Source of the DNA: an uncultured Pelagibacteraceae bacterium
GTDB taxonomy: Bacteria; Pseudomonadota; Alphaproteobacteria; Pelagibacterales; Pelagibacteraceae
NCBI GenBank assembly: GCA_902618205.1
Contig: CACMZL010000006.1
Coordinates: 1-64,000 of the forward strand
DNA: 64,000 nucleotides
Direction: 5' to 3'
Part shown: piece after piece, positions 34,056 to 39,513 of the stretch
Layout: each line of letters opens with the position of its first letter
Numbering within the stretch: position 1 is the first letter of the stretch
Notes under the pieces: generated by a model
What the model was told of the DNA's origin: nothing
The model's input: only the letters and a program-made list of their open reading frames with translations
Databases searched by the model: none
Made by a program: the position numbers and the translations under genes

Positions 34056-35317
34056 TTCAAATTAAGTAGCTCACCAGCAAGATACAAAGATCCAGTTATC
34101 ATTATCAAATCATCTTTCTCTGAATTAAGAGAATTCAAAGCCTCTTCAATAGATTTTTTGTAACTAACATTAGGATATTTATTTAATTTTTTCTTAAGTT
34201 CTTTACCTTTGATAGCATTTGGCTGGTTTGGAATATCGATTGTTGTAATAGAGGATATATTATGAAAATGGCTTATATATTCTTCGTGATCTTTATTAGA
34301 CATCATTCCAAGAATTAAATGCTTTTTACAATCAAGAGTGTTTAAATATTCATTAAGAGCTTTTGCACCTAAAGGATTATGTGATCCATCTAAATATAAT
34401 CTATTATTCTTACAAATATTTTTAAACTTTCCAGATTTAATTTCTTGTAGTCTTGCAATACTTTTTATCTTAGTAATACCTTCTTTAATATTTTCATCTT
34501 TTACTCCAAGTTGTAAATTTCTTACTGTAGCAATAGCAGTTGCACAATTATCAATTTGAAAATTACCTAAAAGATTTGGTTTTGGTAATTTTAAACCACC
34601 ATATTCGTCTTCATAATAAATAAAACCATTCTCATTTAATGAATAATTAAATTGATCTTTATAAACAATTTTTTTTGATTGATTATTATTAATTGTTTTT
34701 TTTATTAAATTTAAGGTTTCATCTGAGCTTTGTTTACCTACAACTATGTCTGATGTTAGTAATGATGAAGTTTTTTCATAAACAATTTTTTCAATATTCT
34801 TCTCATTTTTCGGCAACCAATCTAAATGATCTAAACCTATTGAAGTAACAATACTGGATAAATTCGTATCAATAATATTTGTTGCATCAAATCTGTGGAA
34901 TAAACCACTTTCTAAAATATTTATTTTGTCTTTAAACTTACTAGCATGATAAAGATATGCTGCAGTTAGTATTTCAAAATAAGTTATTTGTTCTCCATTA
35001 TTAACATTTTCAACTTTTATTAATAAATTAGACAATTCATCGTCAGATATTTCAACGTCGTTAAATATAAATCTCTCATTAATTCTTTGAATATGTGGGC
35101 TTGTATATATATTACAATTTATATTAGCATTCTTTAAAATTGACCTTACAGCTTGTATAGTTGAATACTTACCGTTTGTGCCAACGACTGATATAAATTT
35201 TAATTTTTTCTGTGGATTACCTAATTTACTACAAAGGTTCTTAACTCTATCTAGACTGAGATCAATTTCTTTAGGATGCAGCTTTTGCAAGCGGTTCAAT
35301 ATTGTCTGAAGTTTCAT
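34052..35317 (-). CDS. folC: Folylpolyglutamate/dihydrofolate synthase
   Basis: 421 residues. Adds glutamate to dihydropteroate and/or folates. The Mur-ligase-like P-loop is VVGTNGKYST (usual GTNGKGS, here a Tyr), followed by YTSPHIQRINERF, the EILTAAYLYHA segment, SIGLDHLDWLP and DGSHNPLGAKAL. The start lies 47 bases inside the end of accD, a long overlap that is also seen for the accD-folC pair in other Alphaproteobacteria as adjacency. Confidence 0.92.
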   Translation of the reverse strand: MKLQTILNRLQKLHPKEIDLSLDRVKNLCSKLGNPQKKLKFISVVGTNGKYSTIQAVRSILKNANINCNIYTSPHIQRINERFIFNDVEISDDELSNLLIKVENVNNGEQITYFEILTAAYLYHASKFKDKINILESGLFHRFDATNIIDTNLSSIVTSIGLDHLDWLPKNEKNIEKIVYEKTSSLLTSDIVVGKQSSDETLNLIKKTINNNQSKKIVYKDQFNYSLNENGFIYYEDEYGGLKLPKPNLLGNFQIDNCATAIATVRNLQLGVKDENIKEGITKIKSIARLQEIKSGKFKNICKNNRLYLDGSHNPLGAKALNEYLNTLDCKKHLILGMMSNKDHEEYISHFHNISSITTIDIPNQPNAIKGKELKKKLNKYPNVSYKKSIEEALNSLNSEKDDLIMITGSLYLAGELLNLN

Positions 35318-36203
35318 TTATTTGCTTTTCATTTACCGCGTTATCTTTTTTTAACAATATTGATAATAGTAAGCTTATCTCTGTTTTTAAATCTTTTCGT
35401 TCAACGATTCTGTCTACAAATCCATGCTTTTCTACAAATTCAGATGTTTGAAAGTCAGAACTAAGCTCTTCCTTAACAGTTGCTTGTATAACTCTTTTTC
35501 CTGCAAAGGCTATCAAACAACCTGGTTCAGCAAAATGAATATCTCCTAACATTGCAAATGATGCCGTAATACCACCAGCGGTTGGATCAGTAAAACAAAC
35601 TAAATAAGGAAGATTGTTTTTTTTGAGTTCATTAATAGCAAGCGTAGTTCTTGTCATATTTGCGAGTGCAATAGGAGACTCAAACATTCTTTGTCCACCC
35701 CCACAAGGAAAGAAAACAAATGGTGTTTGATTATCAATAGCGTGTTGAACCCCATAAATAATTGCTTCACCCTCTGCAGCTCCAACAGAACCACCAATGA
35801 ACTCAAAATTTATTGCTCCAGCTGTCACTTCGATACCATTTATTCTTCCTTTAGCAATCATCACAGCTGAATTTTGATTAGTTTTCTTTCGCGCAGATCT
35901 TAATCTATCTTTATAAGACTTGGTATCTACCCATCCAAGAGGATCTTCTGCAGGAATTGGTGTATCAAGTATTTCGTAAGCATCTCTTCCAAAAATAATA
36001 TCAAATCTTTGTCGACAATTAATTCTATGATGTTTTCCGCACGAGTTGCAAACCCATAAATTTTCCTCAAGATCTTTTTTTAATATCGGGCCCTTGCAAC
36101 AACTAGTCCAGTCTGAGTTTGCTACATCCTCTTTTGATGGTCTTTTTTTTAAAACTCTTTTAATTTTTTCACCAAAACTTAAAGCTTTTGTAATCCAGTT
36201 CAT
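35271..36203 (-). CDS. accD: Acetyl-CoA carboxylase carboxyltransferase subunit beta
   Basis: 310 residues. With AccA it transfers CO2 from carboxybiotin to acetyl-CoA. After RPSKEDVANSDWTSC comes an N-terminal zinc ribbon in which the usual first CxxC is an adjacent CC; the second pair, VCNSCGKHHRI, is normal. The crotonase-like core is visible (GGSVGAAEGEAI, TDPTAGGITASFAMLGD, AFAGKRVIQATVKEEL). The usual SGGARMQEG reads CGGGQRMFES. It overlaps trpA by 4 bases and folC by 47. Confidence 0.92.
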   Translation of the reverse strand: MNWITKALSFGEKIKRVLKKRPSKEDVANSDWTSCCKGPILKKDLEENLWVCNSCGKHHRINCRQRFDIIFGRDAYEILDTPIPAEDPLGWVDTKSYKDRLRSARKKTNQNSAVMIAKGRINGIEVTAGAINFEFIGGSVGAAEGEAIIYGVQHAIDNQTPFVFFPCGGGQRMFESPIALANMTRTTLAINELKKNNLPYLVCFTDPTAGGITASFAMLGDIHFAEPGCLIAFAGKRVIQATVKEELSSDFQTSEFVEKHGFVDRIVERKDLKTEISLLLSILLKKDNAVNEKQINETSDNIEPLAKAAS

Positions 36204-37000
36204 AGAATTTTACTTTTTAATTTTTTTACTAGCTTACTTACATTTGTGACAGGATTTTGTCTATGCTTTAAACTCTTACTAATTTCCTTACAAATAGCAC
36301 TTCCAACAACCAATCCATCTGCAGATTTGAGTTTACCAATTGTTTTTCCTGTGATTCCAAAACCGATAACAATCTCTTTTTTTGGATCGATTTTTTTTAT
36401 TTTGTTATAATTTTTTATTATATCTTTCGGTGATACTTTTAGTTTACCACCTGTTGTACTCAACATGGAAATAAAATAATTCATAGGATGAGAGTCTCTG
36501 ATAATTTTTTTAAGTCTTTGTATAGTTGTTGTTGGTGATAAAAGCTGAATAAAATAAATAGATTTTTTTTTACATTTTCTAGCAAAATCTATATTTTCCG
36601 GCCAGGGCAAATCTACAACTATTAATCCATTTACTCCTGAGGAATTACATTTATTTAAAAATTTGCTTTCCCCATATTGAAAAATCATATTAAAATAACC
36701 CATGAGTATAATTGGTTTATCTTTATTTAATTTTTTAAATTCTTTTACGATTTTAAAAATATCATTCATTTTAATTCCATTTTTAATTGCTCTGTATGCA
36801 CTTGTCTGGATTTGACTACCGTCTGCTACTGGTGTGTTGTGCGGAACACCTAATTCTAAAATATCAGCATCTTTTGAAATTGATTTTAATATATCTAATG
36901 ATTGTTTTTTTGAGCTATCTCCTGCAACAGTATAAGTTATTAGAGCAGCTCTATTTTCTTGTTTTGCTTTTTTAAAAGCAAGACTAATTGGATTAAGCAT
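36200..37000 (-). CDS. trpA: Tryptophan synthase alpha subunit
   Basis: 266 residues. Cleaves indole-3-glycerol phosphate to indole for TrpB. The catalytic pair sits at the canonical numbers: E49 in DILELGVP and D60 in VADGSQIQ. Phosphate-site segments GFGITGK and DGLVVGSAI are present. Odd: the signature PFSDPxADG reads PHNTPVADG and the GVTG loop reads STTGGK. It overlaps trpB by 8 bases and accD by 4. Most likely the alpha subunit, though its partner TrpB is unusual. Confidence 0.85.
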   Translation of the reverse strand: MLNPISLAFKKAKQENRAALITYTVAGDSSKKQSLDILKSISKDADILELGVPHNTPVADGSQIQTSAYRAIKNGIKMNDIFKIVKEFKKLNKDKPIILMGYFNMIFQYGESKFLNKCNSSGVNGLIVVDLPWPENIDFARKCKKKSIYFIQLLSPTTTIQRLKKIIRDSHPMNYFISMLSTTGGKLKVSPKDIIKNYNKIKKIDPKKEIVIGFGITGKTIGKLKSADGLVVGSAICKEISKSLKHRQNPVTNVSKLVKKLKSKIL

Positions 37001-38228
37001 ATTTTTTTCCCAATCTTTTTTTTAAAATTTCTCTATCTTTATATGAATCACCACAACTATTAACTACTACTATAGTATCTTTGGATAATTTTTTTGCTTC
37101 TTTTATTGCAATTGAAAAGGCATGACTTGGTTCTAGAGAAGGTCTTAATTTTTCAAACTTAGTAACAGTTTTATAAGCAATTAAAGCATCTTCATCACTT
37201 GCCGCAGTATATCTTGCTCTTTTTGTATCTTTTAAAAAACAGTGTAGTGGAGAAATTCCAGGGTAATCAAGTCCAGCAGAAATTGATTCAGTTTCTTCTA
37301 TCTGTCCATCCGAGTCTTGATTAACATATTGAGCTGCACCATGAAGAATTCCGATTTTTGAACCGTAAGTTAAAGGTGCTGCATGTTTTTTACTTTTTGC
37401 TGGTCCACCAGCTTCCACACCAATAAATTCACACTGTTTTTTATCATAATCCATAAATTCGTTCCAAAAACCAAAACTTGAACTTCCACCACCAACACAA
37501 TTATAAAGTTTTAGTTTTCTTGGTACTGATCCGAACTCATCAATTAATTGTACTTTGAGTTCTCTTGAAATTTGACTAGTACTCCATCCACAAATACGAA
37601 CAAAGACAGCAGGTCCTACTGTGCTTCCAACACACATTGCTGTAGTATCACAATTCGCAACCCAGAATCTCATACATTCAGAAACAGCATCAACAAGTGT
37701 TTGACTTCCTGAATATACAGGTATTACTTCAGCTCCATTTTTTTTCATAGCCTTTACATTGGGCTGTTGTCTTGCAATATCTTTTGCACCCATGAAAATT
37801 TTGCATTTTAAGCCAAATTTTTTAGCTGCCATACTCAACATTTTACCCGCATAACCAGCGCCAGTGTCGCCAATAATAAATTTTTTACCAGATCGTTTAG
37901 CAAGCAGACAATGTACAGTAGCATTGTATATTTTGTGTGCTCCGCCATTTGCATCTGATACAACTTTAGACCAAATTTGAGCCCCACCTACATGATTCGT
38001 TAGATTTTCTAATTTTATAAAACGAGTAGGGGTACCAATCCAATTTTTAAAATATTTATCTCTTTCAGCTATGAATCTTTTGTCATTTTTTAATTTATTA
38101 AATAGAACTTCTAGATCTTCTATCGGCTTTTTTAATGTCTCAGGAACGTAGTTCCCTCCAAACTTCCCCCCCCAAAAACCAAGTTTGTTTACCTGATCTA
38201 TTAGTGGAATTTTTTTTTTAATTTTCAT
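36993..38228 (-). CDS. trpB: Divergent tryptophan synthase beta subunit
   Basis: 411 residues. Fold-type II PLP enzyme that would join indole and serine. The PLP lysine is K99 in NGGAHKIYNA, the N-terminus GFWGGKFGGNYVPETL is TrpB-like, and CVGGGSSSFG is the phosphate loop. Several catalytic signatures differ: LKREDLNHTGAHK reads SKVVSDANGGAHK, and ETGAGQHG reads DTGAGYAG, so the Glu equivalent to E109 is D121 and the following Gln-His are Tyr-Ala. VVGPHPYP reads TVGPAVFV. Position between trpF and trpA supports TrpB; altered activity is possible. Confidence 0.82.
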   Translation of the reverse strand: MKIKKKIPLIDQVNKLGFWGGKFGGNYVPETLKKPIEDLEVLFNKLKNDKRFIAERDKYFKNWIGTPTRFIKLENLTNHVGGAQIWSKVVSDANGGAHKIYNATVHCLLAKRSGKKFIIGDTGAGYAGKMLSMAAKKFGLKCKIFMGAKDIARQQPNVKAMKKNGAEVIPVYSGSQTLVDAVSECMRFWVANCDTTAMCVGSTVGPAVFVRICGWSTSQISRELKVQLIDEFGSVPRKLKLYNCVGGGSSSFGFWNEFMDYDKKQCEFIGVEAGGPAKSKKHAAPLTYGSKIGILHGAAQYVNQDSDGQIEETESISAGLDYPGISPLHCFLKDTKRARYTAASDEDALIAYKTVTKFEKLRPSLEPSHAFSIAIKEAKKLSKDTIVVVNSCGDSYKDREILKKRLGKKYA

Positions 38229-38842
38229 ATATTTGCAAACAAATTTAACAATTTATCGATTTTATTTATATCCTTTTTTCCATTAGTATCTTCTAGTGAT
38301 CCACTCAGATCTATAATGAAATTTTTATTATTAAATTTAGAAATATCGTCTATTTGTATATTACCTGCAATCATTTTATTTAATTCATTTGGCACAATAT
38401 CTAACAAGTTATGATCAAAACTTTCAGATTTATGATATCCTTTTGAATCAAATAAAATTATATCTGATATATCTAGATAATTTTTATATTTAATTACGTC
38501 ATCTTCTCTGGAAACTGTAAGTGCAGTTATTATTTTTATACCATATTTTATTTTAATTTCTTTTGTTCTTTTAGGATCTACATCATAGAGTTGATAGTAA
38601 TCAAAATTTAAATTCTTTATTTTTTCTAAAATTTCGTAAGTTGGATTAACAAGGACAGAAATAAATTTTATATTTTTTTTATTGACGTTAAGGAGTTCTT
38701 TTAGTTTTTCATATTCAACAAATCTTTTACTTTTTCTATAATTTGTTATAAAGCCAATAAAATTCGGTGGATTAGGATGGTCCAAGATATAGTTTAATGT
38801 TTTAGGGTCAGAGATCCCACAAATTTTTAAACCTTTAATCAT
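38225..38842 (-). CDS. trpF: Phosphoribosylanthranilate isomerase (divergent)
   Basis: 205 residues. Amadori rearrangement of phosphoribosylanthranilate. The N-terminal LKICGISDP contains the catalytic Cys (C8), and IILFDSKG carries the likely catalytic Asp. Other signatures are weak: QLHG reads QLYD, the GGTGKxFDW loop reads GYHKSESFDH, LAGGL reads IAGNI and DVSSGVE reads DLSGSLE. It overlaps trpB and pyrF by 4 bases each. Fold and position fit TrpF; efficiency or substrate could differ. Confidence 0.78.
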   Translation of the reverse strand: MIKGLKICGISDPKTLNYILDHPNPPNFIGFITNYRKSKRFVEYEKLKELLNVNKKNIKFISVLVNPTYEILEKIKNLNFDYYQLYDVDPKRTKEIKIKYGIKIITALTVSREDDVIKYKNYLDISDIILFDSKGYHKSESFDHNLLDIVPNELNKMIAGNIQIDDISKFNNKNFIIDLSGSLEDTNGKKDINKIDKLLNLFANI

Positions 38843-39513
38843 TTATCTAAATGATTAATTAATTTTTGAATATTATTTTTAATGTTACCTTTTGTAATAT
38901 CTCTACCTATCACTAACCAATCAGCACCATTTTTATAAGCTTGTTTTGGAGTAAGTGTCCTTTTTTGATCATCTGAGCTTGTGTTTAATCTTATTCCTGG
39001 AGTTATGATTTCATTCTTGAATACTTTCTTCACTATTTGAACTTCTTGAGCACTACATACAATAGCATCCAGTTTTGCTTTATTTGCTAATTTTGCTTGA
39101 TGAGTCACTAATCTTTTTACACTCTTGTTAAATCCAATTTCTTTTAATGCTTTATAGTCCAATGAGGTCAATATTGTAACGCCAATTAATTTTGCTTTTC
39201 CAGAAACTTTTTTTGCAGCTTTTAAGGCATTCAGACCAGCACTAATATGGATAGTAAGATAATTAAAATTTAAGTCACTTATAGCTCTTATCGCAGATGA
39301 GCATGTATTTGGAATATCTGAAAACTTGTAATCACCGAATGTTATTCTATTTTTGAGTGAATTAATAAATTTTCTTCCATTTTTAGAATTTAAAAACTCT
39401 AAACCAAATTTATAACCAAAAATTACATTTTTATTTTGTGTTTCCTTTAAAATTCTTTTGATTTTTTTTATATCTGTGGTGTCGCAAGCTACAAAAACTT
39501 TATTTTTCTTCAT
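38839..39513 (-). CDS. pyrF: Orotidine 5'-phosphate decarboxylase
   Basis: 224 residues. Last step of UMP synthesis. The catalytic DxKxxD is GDYKFSDIPNT; KFGLEFL, LTIHISAGLNALKAA, GVTILTSL, ITPGIR and ADWLVIGRDITKG complete the TIM-barrel pattern. It overlaps ihfB by 14 bases and trpF by 4, part of the long minus-strand run from rnd to folC. Confidence 0.92.
   Translation of the reverse strand: MKKNKVFVACDTTDIKKIKRILKETQNKNVIFGYKFGLEFLNSKNGRKFINSLKNRITFGDYKFSDIPNTCSSAIRAISDLNFNYLTIHISAGLNALKAAKKVSGKAKLIGVTILTSLDYKALKEIGFNKSVKRLVTHQAKLANKAKLDAIVCSAQEVQIVKKVFKNEIITPGIRLNTSSDDQKRTLTPKQAYKNGADWLVIGRDITKGNIKNNIQKLINHLDK

Follow-up and report, generated by a model that had tools for sequence, protein, structure and literature searches.

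The window, a 64,000-nucleotide stretch of DNA from an uncultured Pelagibacteraceae bacterium, carries on its minus strand an IHF-beta-like gene, pyrF, trpF, trpB, trpA, accD and folC. A first-pass annotation had placed a TrpB between trpF and trpA without naming a strand. We confirmed this at 36993-38228 of the minus strand, where the reading frame is open over 411 codons; plus-strand translation of the same region has 27 stops. The trpB frame overlaps trpF by 4 bases and trpA by 8 bases. By that adjacency and overlap, trpB and trpA form a putative operon pair. The features of the locus are:

36993-38228, minus strand: trpB, divergent SAR11-type tryptophan synthase beta subunit, 411 aa (TIGR00263, 376.6 bits)
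37932-37934, minus strand: codon of Lys99, the PLP lysine (Salmonella Lys87), from alignments
37845-37868, minus strand: DTGAGYAG, residues 121-128, with Asp for Glu109 and Tyr-Ala for Gln114-His115, from alignment
37692-37694, minus strand: codon of Val179, at the Salmonella Lys167 position, from alignment
37599-37628, minus strand: GSTVGPAVFV, residues 201-210, in place of the canonical GPHPYP stretch, from alignment
36200-37000, minus strand: trpA, tryptophan synthase alpha subunit, 266 aa (TIGR00262, 206 bits, cut-off 102.35)
36833-36835, minus strand: codon of TrpA Thr56 (canonical Asp56), from alignment
38225-38842, minus strand: trpF, phosphoribosylanthranilate isomerase (PF00697, 84.3 bits, cut-off 22.7); its matches to the NCBIfam trpF models fall under their cut-offs
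38839-39513, minus strand: pyrF, orotidine 5'-phosphate decarboxylase, a conserved neighbour (profile match and compared loci)
35271-36203, minus strand: accD, acetyl-CoA carboxylase beta, a conserved neighbour (TIGR00515, 277.3 bits, cut-off 317.45)

NCBIfam, Pfam and PDB sequence searches all identified the window protein as a TrpB-like PLP enzyme; its best sequence matches in the PDB were the LBCA and P. furiosus TrpBs. Its score falls under the curated cut-off of TIGR00263, the TrpB1 equivalog model (392.45 bits). Identity as a TrpB2 was ruled out, the match to TIGR01415 reaching 86.5 bits against a cut-off of 518.85. Among TrpB1 hallmarks, the PLP lysine with its preceding His and the GGGS phosphate loop are present, and Glu109 is absent, with Asp in its place. 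Residues are numbered here as in Salmonella TrpB, by adding 5 to the P. furiosus number; near the C-terminus the result appears to fall short by one, judging by PDB entry titles (S377), and motif names are used there. Asp121 of the window protein aligns with P. furiosus Glu104, the counterpart of Salmonella Glu109, and Tyr126-Ala127 stand where canonical proteins have Gln114-His115.

Rewritten active-site motifs had been claimed from the window sequence, and alignments and the order-wide sample bear this out, the same changes recurring in related genomes. In the list of motifs, the DTGAGYAG and GSTVGPAVFV changes stand; the GG of GGAHK is nothing out of the ordinary, as HGGAHK is the reading in P. 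furiosus TrpB. The C-terminal SGRGDKD motif has Cys in place of Ser, but since 36 of 60 canonical TrpBs share that Cys, we do not count it as a sign of divergence.

An AlphaFold model of the beta subunit alone, built from 25 alignment rows all from SAR11, had pLDDT 86.0 and pTM 0.89. Its best PDB structure matches were serine-bound P. furiosus TrpBs (Z 58.7, rmsd 1.4 over 387 residues); the window protein is thus predicted to have the TrpB fold.

Extent of the divergent form was monitored with the exact 30-base codon pattern for DTGAGYAGKM. It was found in 229 of 297 Pelagibacterales genomes, covering 8 of 11 genera, and in only five of 385 genomes sampled across the class, these five being every Pelagibacterales member of that sample. 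A scan of the GTDB collection with the family alignment confirmed at least 558 relatives, of which the best 80 were all labelled Pelagibacterales, Pelagibacteraceae or Pelagibacter. By these motif counts and labels, the divergent TrpB is a feature of the SAR11 clade, not an accident of one genome. Single-contig genomes are among the carriers; G001 and G007 each have one TrpB-model match, with the variant motif. A looser DNA pattern for DTGAGxAG performed at chance level (40 of 349 phylum genomes, vs about 45 with a reversed control), and among 30 of its matched loci that were retrieved the window's own was the sole TrpB.

TrpB-model matches at E 0.001 or better were present in 288 of the 297 order genomes, 14 of these having weak matches only; the nine genomes without such a match are all at most 87% complete. 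The 23 genomes lacking a strong match include some that are 95-96% complete (G076, G099), and it is possible that they are tryptophan auxotrophs or have assembly gaps. Scores exceeded the TIGR00263 cut-off in 87 of the 297, and 23 of the 30 best belonged to the family with Asp at position 109, by which residue we define the Asp109 family. In a class sample of 106 genomes, the best full-length TrpBs outside the order scored 549.2 to 657.8 bits, against 376.5 for the window genome and 393.4 for its one order-mate.

The exact motif was missing from 68 order genomes. We took TrpB from 30 of them, chosen among strong matches: 21 were Asp109 members with other letters, and six and three represented two other TrpB types. 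Eight further genomes held three canonical proteins, three of the L007 type, one of the L011 type and one Asp109 member; the rest are the 23 without a strong match and seven outside the typing. The canonical proteins (L004-L006) occupy the same locus and come from the order's other family, so the suggestion that close relatives of the window genome have canonical motifs at this locus fails.

Seven genomes of the window's own genus (L011, L216-L218, L221-L223) have a different, deeply diverged trpBA pair with ESGAGQH, Gln or Thr at Asp305 and Glu at TrpA Asp60; where flanks were compared (L011, L216, L221), this pair lies between accD and a trpF 59-62% identical to that of the window. In the second family of the order, L007-L009 carry at this locus a type with ETGAGAHL, Asn at Asp305 and Leu at Arg141, which groups with the L011 type in trees. 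A further type at the same locus, in L243-L245, has ETGAS, Leu at Lys167, Lys at Arg141 and Thr at TrpA Asp56; it keeps Glu109 and Asp305, and so the alpha56/beta167 charges have also been lost outside the Asp109 family. Four of 30 genomes (G170, G201, G220, G296) gave a second match of about 145-152 bits, over trpB model positions 49-380, perhaps a TrpB2. Searches of the window genome with TrpB1 and TrpB2 models gave no such second match.

For residue comparisons, 208 loci yielded 177 near full-length TrpBs, 156 of them distinct, to which P. furiosus TrpB was added as a ruler. The first alignment held 93 family members and 60 canonical TrpBs, the latter including the ruler and three canonical Pelagibacterales proteins; four TrpBs of other types were set apart. 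Over all aligned distinct TrpBs, position 109 was Asp in 113 and Glu in 73. Every one of the 113 Asp109 proteins keeps His86, Lys87, Thr110, Gly113, Asn145, the closed-state pair Arg141-Asp305 and Glu350, the last three also being TrpB1 hallmarks. Around these the family is altered. At position 114 the proteins have Tyr (95) or Met (18) and never Gln, the Met not being family-specific (6 of 60 canonical TrpBs have it); at position 115, Ala in 94, Phe in 10, Asn in 7 and Gln in 2, with no His; at position 167, Val in 111 and Ile in two, with no Lys; positions 171 and 236 are Ser throughout; and Arg148 survives in just three.

At 69 of the 120 positions invariant in the 60 canonical TrpBs, the canonical residue is found in more than 95% of the 93 family members. 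The other 51 are not so kept, with the canonical residue still commonest at a few. Conversely, 18 positions have one fixed residue across the 93 that is absent from the 60 canonical proteins. With 51 of 120 invariant positions no longer so conserved and the same changes recurring in related genomes, the pattern is not chance. Three members (L010, L079, L080) keep Asn89 and Arg148, yet have Asp109, Ala115 and Val167. Since Asp109 and the loss of Lys167 occur there alongside Arg148, both probably preceded its disappearance from the other members.

The TrpB phylogeny that the first-pass annotation proposed was built, and it sets the window's family apart as a separate clade. With 12 members its support was 100/100, and its stem measures 1.93 changes per site; this first tree sampled 12 of the 93 family members and 55 of the 60 canonical TrpBs, its bootstrap had not settled, long branches meet in it and some rows differ in composition. 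The Asp109 clade came out again, with support 1.0, in a faster tree of 16 members. The canonical group of the first tree holds a few Pelagibacterales TrpBs (L004, L006). The Asp109 clade stands apart from TrpB1, yet is nearest to it.

Ratios of dN/dS for the window TrpB against its ten closest relatives were 0.028-0.047, pointing to purifying selection. These are simple Nei-Gojobori estimates; eight of the ten pairs had dS greater than 1, and the closest two gave 0.047 and 0.045. For TrpA against its ten closest relatives the range was 0.076-0.153.

The window TrpA keeps Glu49 and Asp60 and has Thr for Asp56. Among 109 TrpAs paired with Asp109 proteins, Glu49 and Thr183 are present in all and Asp60 in 108 (one Glu), and IGP cleavage by these subunits should therefore work. 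Asp56 occurs in none of the 109, being replaced by Thr, Ala or Cys, and Gly181 is replaced in 108 (Ser in 105, Asn in 3). In Salmonella, alphaAsp56 and betaLys167 form an inter-subunit salt bridge. Across 173 TrpA/TrpB pairs the two positions agree: either both carry a charge (Asp/Lys 51, Glu/Lys 10) or neither does (109 pairs of the Asp109 family and three, Thr/Leu, of the L243 type, which is a different clade), with Asp/Lys in 51 of 51 canonical pairs. Because the pairs are related by descent, these matched losses amount to few events, though to two or more should the L243 type have arisen independently. PMC8187860, in the part available to us, names Asp56, Lys167 and Asn171 as the residues that partner Tyr279 of the tunnel.

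Searched with the TrpB1 and TrpB2 models, the window genome, which is 97% complete, yielded no TrpB beyond the window's own. Of two weak PALP matches, one resembles a diaminopropionate ammonia-lyase and the other is a cysteine synthase. Of the pathway genes, trpC, trpD and trpG are grouped elsewhere in this genome with a contig-end trpE fragment. The SAR11 isolates HTCC1062 and HTCC7211 are cultured in artificial seawater supplemented with pyruvate, glycine, methionine and vitamins, a recipe that lists no tryptophan in the consulted part of PMC8437039. In the sections of PMC2395257 at hand, Kagan et al. (2008) place the SAR11 trpB on a distinct, single-copy trpB1 branch, report a single trpB for P. 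ubique within this divergent cluster, and argue from the single copy that the gene is functional. From the place of HTCC1062 in that cluster we infer that its TrpB carries DTGAGYAG. The idea that this could be a known active TrpB subtype is thus partly right: the SAR11 cluster had been recognized and argued functional.

Work on enteric bacteria and P. furiosus supplies most of what is known about tryptophan synthase, a model for allostery and for the channelling of substrates. A Glu109-to-Asp mutant of the Salmonella TrpB is impaired. In the portion of the review PMC9512447 that we consulted, the Salmonella Glu109 carboxylate hydrogen-bonds indole N1 and stabilizes charge during C-C bond formation, an interaction treated as required, while Lys87 is the acid for loss of the serine hydroxyl. 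The earlier statement that E109 is needed for the serine beta-reaction is accordingly better put as a need for it in activating indole (PMC9512447). The same source has the Gln114 side chain bonding Asn145 and Arg148 in the closed but not the open state, Gln114Ala destabilizing the closed state, and Gln114 mutants changing reaction specificity.

We consider it very probable that the locus encodes an active, TrpA-coupled SAR11 tryptophan synthase, with Asp doing the job of Glu109 and with closed-state and subunit contacts rewired. PLP on Lys99 would convert serine to aminoacrylate, and Asp121, one methylene shorter than Glu109, would give the carboxylate that pairs with indole N1 as the C-C bond forms. 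Gln114, His115 and mostly Arg148 would be dispensed with, two of which (Gln114 and Arg148) help to hold the Salmonella closed state. These losses and that of the alphaAsp56/betaLys167 pair may be offset by changes in nearby conserved positions and in TrpA, and the alpha and beta subunits would stay coupled via different contacts. What the sequences show is a separate clade, its conservation under purifying selection, the matching change in TrpA, the pathway genes and a predicted TrpB fold; tryptophan production, the role of Asp121 and the rewired coupling are what we infer. Counting against this reading are the TIGR00263 score under the cut-off and, in Salmonella, the need for the Glu109-indole N1 interaction and the impaired Asp mutant. 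A functional tryptophan synthase appears by far the likeliest reading, given the sole TrpB, the pathway genes, the dN/dS values, the structural model, the tryptophan-less media and the single P. ubique trpB.

A changed mechanism had been proposed, and the sequences suggest one in a narrow sense only, namely Asp for Glu109 with rewired closed-state and alpha-beta contacts. Changed substrate use was proposed as well. The active site might have been rewritten for another donor (O-acetylserine or phosphoserine) or another nucleophile, leaving the old Glu109 system unneeded; Gln114, His115 and their neighbors by the substrate-carboxylate loop are replaced family-wide, and Salmonella Gln114 mutants do shift reaction specificity in the available text of PMC9512447. 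Nonetheless an acid at 109 is kept in 113 of 113 proteins together with Asp305, Arg141, Lys87 and Glu350, which favours ordinary tryptophan synthesis, and the trpF-trpB-trpA context, the pathway genes and a separate cysteine synthase in the window genome also make this alternative unlikely. Less likely again is a largely TrpA-independent, stand-alone-like beta subunit fed free indole by TrpA. Loss of the alpha56/beta167 pair on both sides and joint replacement of Gln114 and Arg148 in most members would suit it, but trpB and trpA are still adjacent and overlapping, TrpA keeps Thr183 and its catalytic pair, and Ser or Asn for TrpA Gly181 looks more like a matched change than a loss.

The first-pass annotation also raised a decayed TrpB complemented elsewhere. 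Conservation has indeed lapsed at 51 of 120 normally invariant positions, as it might in a dying gene whose step is met by another enzyme or by uptake. We rejected decay as very improbable: dN/dS is about 0.04, the motif is conserved widely in Pelagibacterales, in most genomes of the order, catalytic residues are kept in both subunits, and neither the TrpB1 nor the TrpB2 model brought up another TrpB in the window genome. Assembly or read error in the window genome, which is in 28 contigs, was rejected too and has a negligible chance of being the explanation, given a frame open over 411 codons and a motif shared by 229 of 297 order genomes, single-contig ones included.

In SAR11 bacteria, tryptophan thus appears to be made by a conserved form of the textbook enzyme that has been heavily rewritten. 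More tentatively, at somewhat under an even chance, the pair may achieve normal coupled catalysis through a different internal design, with a catalytic Asp, other contacts, and TrpA and TrpB evolved jointly. If so, the SAR11 enzyme is a natural test of which textbook allosteric parts are needed. Should it work well without Glu109, Gln114, His115, Lys167, alphaAsp56 and mostly without Arg148, such residues would be replaceable when their surroundings change with them.

Literature searches on SAR11 or Pelagibacter TrpB and on E109D returned only PMC2395257 as concerning SAR11 TrpB, judged by title and start of abstract, with most subscription journals outside their scope. Active-site residues and TrpA changes are absent from the portion of PMC2395257 consulted, and as far as these searches reach, the residue-level rewriting and the matched TrpA change are new.

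Among known systems, TrpB2 (TIGR01415) shares the PLP fold family with the window protein, at a score far under its cut-off. TrpB1 of P. furiosus and Salmonella has in common with the SAR11 family the predicted fold, PLP lysine, GGGS loop, Asp305, Arg141, Glu350 and an adjoining trpA. The SAR11 family differs from it in having Asp for Glu109 and Ser for Asn236, in lacking His115 and Lys167, and in replacement of the Arg of SGRGDKD (by Asp in 89 of 93). The SAR11 trpB1 cluster, as set out in the consulted part of PMC2395257, is a probable counterpart: P. ubique has a single trpB, and the gene order in the window matches the published one.
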